A stretch of 64,000 nucleotides of DNA from an uncultured Bacteroidota bacterium (GTDB taxonomy: Bacteria; Bacteroidota; Bacteroidia; Flavobacteriales; Flavobacteriaceae): contig CACEAZ010000001.1 of the NCBI GenBank assembly GCA_902557655.1, positions 71,699 through 135,698 on the forward strand, read 5' to 3'. This document shows positions 40,809 through 44,478 of the stretch, one piece after another. A program made the position numbers and the translations under genes. The notes beneath the pieces were generated by a model. That model did not search any database. It had not been told where the DNA came from and saw only the letters and a program-made list of their open reading frames with translations. How positions within the stretch are numbered: the stretch's first letter is position 1; each line of letters opens with the position of its first letter.

Positions 40809-40909
40809 TATTAAAATTATATCTTTGTATAGTGTTGTTTATCTGATAAACACAAATGCAAATATAATAATACTTTTTTTGTTGAATAATAACAGATAAT
40901 AAGCGTTAA

Positions 40910-43535
40910 ATGAACTCAAATGAAGTTAGAAAGAGGTTCTTAGATTTTTTTGAGAAAAAAAAATCATAAAATTGGCAAATCATCTCCGATGGTTTCGAAG
41001 AATGATCCTTCTTTAATGTTTATTAATTCTGGAATGGCCCCTTTCAAGGATTATTTTTTAAACCAAGAAAATCCTAAGGACAAAAGGGTTGCCAATTCCC
41101 AAAAATGCCTGCGAGTTTCTGGAAAACACAATGATTTAGAAGAAGTTGGACATGATACTTATCATCACACCTTCTTTGAAATGTTGGGAAATTGGAGTTT
41201 TGGAGATTATTTCAAAGAAGATGCGATCAATTGGTCATGGGAACTTTTAACAAAAGAGTTTGGAATTAATCCAGATGACTTATATGTTACTGTTTTTACA
41301 GGTTCAAAGGAGGATGATGTATCTGAGGATACTGAAGCAATCAACATATGGAATAAAATAATTGATAAAGACAGAATTATTCTTTGTGGTAAAAAAGATA
41401 ATTTTTGGGAAATGGGAGATCAAGGTCCTTGTGGCCCCTGTAGTGAAATTCATGTTGATTTAAGAAGTGAAGTTGAAAAAAGTAAAGTTCCTGCTCAAAG
41501 TCTAATAAATAAAGATAATCCTTTGGTTATTGAGTTATGGAATCTTGTATTTATTGAGTTTAACAGAAAAGCAAGTGGTAAATTGGAAGATCTACCAAAA
41601 AAACATATTGATACTGGAATGGGGCTTGAAAGACTCTGTATGGTTCTTCAAAATGTAAAATCAAATTATGATACTGATATATTTAAAACTGTTATTGATG
41701 AAATTCAGCAAACAACAGGTATTAACTACGGAAAGAATGAAGATGTAGATATTGCTATGAGGGTAATTTCTGATCATCTAAGAGCTGTTTCATTCTCAAT
41801 TGCTGACGGTCAATTACCTAGTAATTCTGGTGCAGGATACGTAATCAGAAGAATTTTGAGAAGAGCGATTAGATACAGTTTTACTTTTCTTGATATTAAA
41901 GAACCATTCCTTTATAAATTATTTAGTTCCATTTTAATAAAAATGGGTGATTTTTACCCTGAACTTAATAATCAAAAAACTTTAATTCAAAATGTTATAA
42001 AAGAAGAAGAAAATTCTTTTTTAAGGACTTTAGATCAAGGTTTAGTTTTATTAGATGAAATAATCGCTTCCTCAAAAAGTAAGTTAGTCTCTGGAAAAAA
42101 AGCTTTTGAGTTATATGACACATATGGCTTCCCTGTTGACTTAACCAGTCTTATTTTACAAGAAAAGGGTTTTGAGTTAGATACTAAATCATTTGATAAA
42201 GAACTTGACAAACAAAAAGATAGATCCAGAAAAGCTAGTGAAGTTTCCTTTGATGATTGGATAGTTTTGATTGATGATCCAGTTCAGGAATTCATCGGAT
42301 ATGATTCATTGGAATCAAATATAAAAATCGTTAAATACAGAAAAATTAATTCTAAAAAAGATGGGATTATCTTTCAACTAGTTTTTAATCTTACTCCTTT
42401 TTATTCAGAATCTGGCGGTCAAGTTGGTGATATTGGTTTTATAGAATCTAATGATGGAGATGTTGTTCATATCATGGATACGGTCAAAGAAGGAAACTTA
42501 ACCGTGCACATCACTAAAAACCTACCCAAGAAAGTTGACCAAATTTTTAGAGCAGTTGTTGATAATAAAAATAGATTTAAAATTCAATGTAATCATACTG
42601 CAACTCATTTATTACATCAAGCATTACAACAGGTTTTAGGAGATCATGTTGAGCAAAAAGGAAGTAGGGTTAGTTCAGAAAGTTTAAGATTTGATTTTTC
42701 TCACTTTTCTAAACTTGATGGGAATGATATTATAAAAGTTGAAAATTTTGTGAATTCAAGAATCGAAAACTCTATTGAATTAGAAGAAAATCGAAACATT
42801 CCTCTAAAAGAAGCCTTAGACAAAGGAGCTACAGGTTTATTCGGAGAAAAATACGGAGATGTTGTCAGAACAATAAAATTTGGAAATTCTTACGAATTAT
42901 GCGGGGGTACACATGCTAGTAATACCTCTGAATTATGGCAATTTAAAATAATTAACGAAGGAGCTATCGCATCAGGCATTAGAAGAGTTGAAGCAATCAC
43001 TTATGATTCTGTAAAGAATTATTATAATTCAAAAGTTCAAGAATATAATCAGATTAAAACGTTACTTAAAAATCCAAAAAATTTGCTTGAATCTGTGAAT
43101 TCTTTAACTAAAGAAAATTTATCGTTAAAAAAAGAAATAGAGATTTTAAATAACGAAAAAGTTAAAACAATAAAGAACAGTATAATTGCGGATTTGAAAA
43201 GCCTGTCTGATGTAAAAACTTATTCTTCTTTAATCGAATTAAAACCAGCCAAAATTAAAGACTTGTGCTTTTCTATTGGTGCTAAAATTGACAATGTGTT
43301 TTTAATATTGGTTTCTCAAGAAAATGATAAAGTATATTGTTCGTGCTATATTTCAAAAAACTTAGTATCTGAGAGGGCTTTAAATGCTTCAGAAATAGTT
43401 ACCAAGCTCGGTGTGGTTATTAATGGTAGAGGAGGAGGGCAGCCTTTCTACGCTAGTTGTGCTGGAGATAACACTAATGCTTTAGATAAATTAATTCATA
43501 CAGCCTCAGAGATCCAAAAGCAATTAATTTCTTAA
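40910..43535 (+). CDS. alaS: Alanyl-tRNA synthetase; 5' end is in a different frame (+1) from the body because of an A9 homopolymer (ORF-track start 40950)
   Basis: ATG at 40910 encodes MNSNEVRKRFLDFFEKK (AlaRS N-terminus), then A9 at 40955-40963 breaks the frame; body resumes NHKIGKSSPMVSKNDPSLMFINSGMAPFKDYF... CNHTATHLLHQAL; ELCGGTH. Confidence 0.93.
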
Positions 43536-43536
43536 A

Positions 43537-44478
43537 ATGAATTTTACTCAACAAAATATTTCTGATGTTAGAAATGACATTAGTAAATATGTTATTCGAA
43601 CTCCAGTACTAAGATTTGATTTTATCGACAGTTTGTGTGGTTGTAATGTTTTTTTTAAATGTGAAAACTTTCAGCATACGGGATCATTCAAATACAGAGC
43701 AGCTATAAATGCAATTAAAAATATTCCTCCACAATTTAAGAACAGAGGCGTAATAACTCACTCCTCAGGAAACTTTGCTTATGCACTTTCTAAAGCATCA
43801 AAAGAATTAAATATTCCTTGCCATATTGTAATGCCAAGTAATACACCTAAGTTTAAAAAGTCTGCCGTTCAATATTATACAAAGGATATAATTGAGTGTG
43901 AACCTAATTTAAAATCAAGAGAGTTAACAACAAGTAAAATATTAAACGAAAAAAAATTATACTTCATTCATCCGTCAAACAACATGGATGTTATAGCAGG
44001 CAATTCAACATGTGCTTTAGAGTTAATTGAAGAGTATCAAAATCTTGATTATGTTTTCTCCCCAATAGGAGGGGGTGGCTTGATCGCAGGAACCTCTATT
44101 GCTATAAAAAATTTCAATAATAATTGTAAAATTATTGGAGCAGAGCCATCCAATGTTGATGATGCTTATCGATCTTTAATATCAGGAAAAATAGAAACCA
44201 ATAGAACAACAGATACTGTCGCTGATGGACTGAGAACAAATCTTGGAACAATAAACTTTCCTATAATACAACAACATGTAAAAGAAATATTATTAGTTTC
44301 TGAAAAAGAAATTATTGAATCCTTAAATATTATATTAAATAACCTAAAACTAGTTGTTGAGCCCTCAAGCTCTGTTGTACTTGCAGCCTTAATAAAGAAT
44401 AAATCAAAATTTAAAAATAAAAATATTGGACTTATAATGTGTGGTGGTAATATTGATTTTGATAATCTAAAATTTTAG
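43537..44478 (+). CDS. PLP-dependent threonine/serine dehydratase or serine racemase
   Basis: FQHTGSFKYRAA (PLP lysine), HSSGNFAYALS, SPIGGGGLIAGTS; no ACT domain. Confidence 0.88.
   Translation: MNFTQQNISDVRNDISKYVIRTPVLRFDFIDSLCGCNVFFKCENFQHTGSFKYRAAINAIKNIPPQFKNRGVITHSSGNFAYALSKASKELNIPCHIVMPSNTPKFKKSAVQYYTKDIIECEPNLKSRELTTSKILNEKKLYFIHPSNNMDVIAGNSTCALELIEEYQNLDYVFSPIGGGGLIAGTSIAIKNFNNNCKIIGAEPSNVDDAYRSLISGKIETNRTTDTVADGLRTNLGTINFPIIQQHVKEILLVSEKEIIESLNIILNNLKLVVEPSSSVVLAALIKNKSKFKNKNIGLIMCGGNIDFDNLKF

Follow-up and report, generated by a model that had tools for sequence, protein, structure and literature searches.

An extra A in a homopolymer separates alaS from its first codons in a Flavobacteriaceae draft genome: most likely an ordinary sequence error

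Introduction

How would a bacterium make alanyl-tRNA synthetase (AlaRS) from a gene whose conserved first codons and whose body lie in different reading frames? This question is raised by alaS in the window, i.e., the 64,000-nucleotide stretch of an uncultured Flavobacteriaceae genome analysed here, in which a run of nine A (A9) at 40955-40963 on the plus strand divides the gene. An earlier note on this DNA left three explanations standing: a one-base error in the assembly, functional rescue by slippage on a real A9 tract, or true use of a downstream TTG start. This was the right choice to pose, and comparison with relatives now favours an error or a rare variant and disfavours both slippage and true TTG use. 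The observation itself is correct, and what it reflects is most likely an ordinary draft-sequence error, not biology.

Reading frames of alaS

The exact position of the tract was confirmed, and so were the coordinates of the interrupted frame as first described. The original start of alaS occupies 40910-40969 (plus strand), where an ATG and 18 sense codons encode MNSNEVRKRFLDFFEKKKS, after which the A9 frame meets a TAA at 40967-40969. The body of the gene occupies 40950-43535 on the same strand, as an open reading frame (ORF) from TTG 40950 to TAA 43535 that encodes 861 aa, with complete catalytic, tRNA-binding, editing and C-terminal parts. Its frame is the one that eight A (A8) would give, which bears out the claim that the body requires eight A and would otherwise begin at TTG 40950. 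In a profile search, the NCBIfam model TIGR00344 (alaS) matches the body from model position 11 on with 845 bits, so that only the extreme N-terminus is missing.

The gene is single-copy in the genome (1.386 Mb in 45 contigs, 81.7% completeness); a second intact alaS elsewhere was considered and none was found, in a draft that is 81.7% complete. A9 runs as such are unremarkable in the window, with 11 matches vs 27 expected from shuffled sequence.

The 5′ end of alaS in relatives

The earlier note had proposed comparing the 5′ ends of alaS in close relatives, and this comparison finds the relatives intact and A9 private to this assembly. An alaS match is present in 15 of the 20 other genomes examined from the genus, and 13 of these (L003-L015) include the 5′ end; in each of the 13 the ATG runs in frame into the body. 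Exactly A8 is present in 11 of them, within the codons Lys-Lys-Asn or Lys-Lys-Lys that precede a His; the two most distant members of the genus (57% identical) are without such a long A tract and have the frame intact. The nearest relative with the gene, the sister genome G013, has an AlaRS 97% identical to that of the window genome and carries A8, so that the DNA alignment has a one-A gap at the tract, and the G that precedes the tract is common to both. Outside the genus, all 80 named Bacteroidota loci examined have an intact alaS. Because the same 5′ sequence runs in frame in all of these genus genomes and named relatives, its likeness to the AlaRS N-terminus is not a chance match.

Across the 93 sequences (13 from the genus and 80 named), R7, F14, H19 and S24 are invariant, and only F or Y occurs at positions 10 and 13. 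Within a sample of 300 genomes from the family, the match of the window genome begins at residue 12, and all others among the matches listed (about 155) begin at residue 1 or 2; solved AlaRS structures, too, align from residue 1-3. G013 and the other genus genomes are also drafts, yet 13 independent drafts and 80 named genomes agree. Taken together, the conserved N-terminus, the in-frame relatives and the matches that start at residue 1 or 2 indicate that ATG 40910 is the true, ancestral start of alaS and that the ninth A is specific to the branch leading to this assembly. A lineage-wide frameshift is rejected, since the genus genomes and the family sample are intact, and the idea that the genus ancestrally started alaS at the TTG is rejected as well, given the invariance of R7, F14 and H19 in the 93 sequences and an ATG kept throughout.

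Conservation of A8 need not be read as a sign of function: Lys is encoded by AAA in 80% of cases and Asn by AAT in 77%, and with this preference Lys-Lys-Asn often yields A8 by itself. Further DNA of the same species was found neither in viral contigs nor in phage records, and a scan of genome contigs, from which records near the window's genome may be excluded, returned no record of the same genus. A literature search for frameshifts at homopolymers within alaS itself gave no relevant result.

Selection on the two parts of the gene

The 45 bases from the ATG to the tract differ from those of G013 at a single position (44/45 identical), and the body differs from its G013 counterpart with dN 0.011 and dS 0.136, a ratio of 0.08. 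Across 197 genes of this genome pair, the median dN/dS is 0.07 and the median dS about 0.10. With one base in 45 changed despite such a median dS, and with a body ratio close to the median, neither part is decaying, and decay of alaS as a pseudogene is rejected. Either the cell has an unbroken frame, or the break arose very recently, or a bypass operates. Both parts are thus kept under purifying selection, which an error or a very recent mutation would predict equally.

Homopolymer breaks in the two sister drafts

The quality of the draft was judged against G013, using 826 kb of the 1386 kb of the window genome and 760 kb of the sister, of which about 330 kb align at >90% identity (mean about 96%). 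Within this aligned part, about 170 A/T tracts of at least 8 lie inside ORFs of the window genome, and the alaS tract is its only clear frame-breaking indel. The remaining isolated frame-changing gaps are at or near gene ends, except for three breaks in G013. A comparison of the 826 kb with the proteins of G013, G003 and G020, in which breaks less than about 25 codons from gene ends are invisible, found no mid-gene frameshift in the window genome where homologues were present.

The three breaks in G013 are of the same kind. Its rpoC (L126; G013:C2:8450-8487, minus strand) has one extra A, A7 vs A6, which splits the gene into two frames in the middle of GLPKNMAAELYKPF, and rpoC is unbroken and full-length, or nearly so, in 14 other genomes of the genus. 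Its phosphohexomutase gene (L143; G013:C7:41178-42266, minus strand) is cut short by A9 in place of A8, and a putative dehydrogenase gene (L144; G013:C8:16406-17613, plus strand) lacks a base at an A run (A7); both genes are intact in the window genome. Because cells need an intact β′ subunit to live and slippage on A7 is poor, the rpoC break is best read as what it probably is, an error in the consensus. The breaks in G013 are in effect a positive control, in that one-base breaks in A tracts do occur in drafts of this genus, in genes that cannot be dead.

The favoured explanation

The ninth A is best explained as a one-base consensus error, or as a rare allele captured in the assembly, with a probability of roughly three in four (0.74). 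In the living organism, alaS would then be an ordinary gene of about 874 codons that starts at the ATG and carries eight A at the tract, and the ninth A would be a draft consensus error or a rare assembled variant in a homopolymer, entailing no cellular loss and requiring no recoding. Reads, or the majority of the population, would be expected to carry A8. This explanation is favoured by A8 or intact frames in the relatives, by the undecayed 5′ part and by the similar breaks, including that in rpoC, in the sister draft. The change resembles a draft homopolymer error in several respects: it alters one base within an A tract, no other draft shares it, and the gene affected is essential, single-copy, otherwise under normal selection and cannot be dead.

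However, elsewhere in this draft the homopolymers match those of the sister closely, which implies a low error rate: only 1 of the approximately 170 long ORF tracts breaks the frame in the window genome, which counts against an error. Counting weakly in the same direction, the single break sits where its cost to the sequence is least, as a tolerated real mutation would; this argument is weak because about one in four of these tracts is found no more than 60 nt from an ORF end anyway. If the ninth A is an error, it calls for caution, as gene callers would place the alaS start at the TTG and annotate an enzyme trimmed at its N-terminus, and G013 would be reported with a split rpoC.

Slippage on a real A9 tract

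Should A9 be real, RNA polymerase may drop one A (or add two), or the ribosome may shift +1 on the Lys codons, to give full-length AlaRS at a reduced level. Such rescue is possible in principle. Nine A is a slippery length, and two properties expected of slippage-dependent genes are present here, namely a frame-breaking indel in a long A/T run (A9 vs A8 in 11 of 13) and purifying selection on both parts (44/45 bases; dN/dS 0.08). In Blochmannia, rescue of poly-A frameshifts by transcriptional slippage is presumed for dnaX, dnaG and pth of B. vafer, and frameshifted genes are reported to have about 30% full-length transcripts (PMC3017870). The alaS case resembles the poly-A genes of Buchnera and Blochmannia: the genome is AT-rich, the gene is essential, the indel lies in an A run and each of the two parts is conserved. 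In addition, E. coli at basal expression bypassed an A that had been inserted into an 8A repeat of M.HaeIII (PMC3812077). That construct has the same geometry as alaS, eight A plus one; however, it was a laboratory construct under selection and speaks for what can occur rather than for events at this locus.

Several observations make slippage an unlikely explanation of this locus all the same. Some of the cases reported in Blochmannia are common to several species, whereas the alaS indel is shared by 0 of 13 same-genus genomes, and instead of being kept across populations or species it is missing from all 13 of these and from the 80 named relatives, in which the frame is intact. Nor were several such genes seen in the genome: neither the 330 kb of DNA alignment nor the protein comparison of 826 kb, where homologues are present, revealed a second clear case of a poly-A frameshift. 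Rescue by the polymerase would need the deletion of one base (or a gain of two), whereas transcription of A/T runs mostly gains single bases: in Buchnera, homopolymers hold 151 of 157 transcriptional insertions but 16 of 57 deletions (PMC5574713).

Nor does the organism, which its best named matches place in the family Flavobacteriaceae, look like an insect endosymbiont. The window genome encodes a bacterial rhodopsin (G000:C7:40887-41561, L240; PF01036, E 7e-35), which points to life in sunlit water; free-living surface-ocean flavobacteria encode rhodopsin. Together with the genome size, a G+C content of 31% and an ORF density of about 94% over the 826 kb, the rhodopsin suggests a free-living, streamlined marine bacterium, in which selection should remove such an allele. 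A broader version, in which a free-living streamlined marine lineage of Flavobacteriaceae has a real A9 in alaS, its sister a real break in rpoC, and both live on polymerase or ribosome slippage in core genes of translation and transcription, must be regarded as very doubtful. A real A9 would mean slippage-dependent expression of an essential synthetase outside the insect endosymbionts.

Translation from TTG 40950 and a minority allele

Ranked below both the error and slippage rescue is the possibility that a real A9 is accommodated by starting at TTG 40950, which would make an AlaRS shorter by 13 N-terminal residues. The ORF from this TTG is open, keeps H19 onward and still yields the TIGR00344 score given above. 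However, the predicted protein would lose R7 and F14, as well as the aromatic residues at positions 10 and 13 (F or Y), all conserved without exception in the 93 sequences, and none of the relatives starts at the TTG, the ATG being kept in every one. The TTG moreover sits inside the original coding region, and no initiation region of its own was seen. True use of the TTG start, as it had been put forward, thus appears highly improbable.

Similarly improbable is that most cells carry A8 and that the ninth A is real yet deleterious, present as a transient or minority allele or through a replication-slippage mosaic. The A8 tract is mutable and conserved in the genus, and a draft built from metagenome data can settle on a single allele where a site is mixed, but nothing in the present data separates such an allele from a sequence error.

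Upstream region and neighbouring genes

Upstream of the ATG, TATCTTTG (40820-40827, plus strand) matches the Bacteroidota -7 promoter box TAnnTTTG and is found in the upstream regions of its congeners as well. By itself, TAnnTTTG occurs in the locus no less often than expected by chance; as a candidate promoter box, TATCTTTG would be consistent with a start at ATG 40910. The gene is divergent from one for an M23-peptidase-like protein, and 40820-40866 is intergenic. A second match to the -7 box, TATATTTG, lies on the minus strand at 40859-40866. Between TATCTTTG and TATATTTG is a perfect 15-nt inverted repeat, GTTTATCTGATAAAC (40837-40851), which is kept in several congeners and is possibly an operator. 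Directly after alaS, 43537-44478 encodes a PLP enzyme resembling threonine/serine dehydratases, for which the best NCBIfam match, below the cut-off, is the β-hydroxyaspartate dehydratase BhcB.
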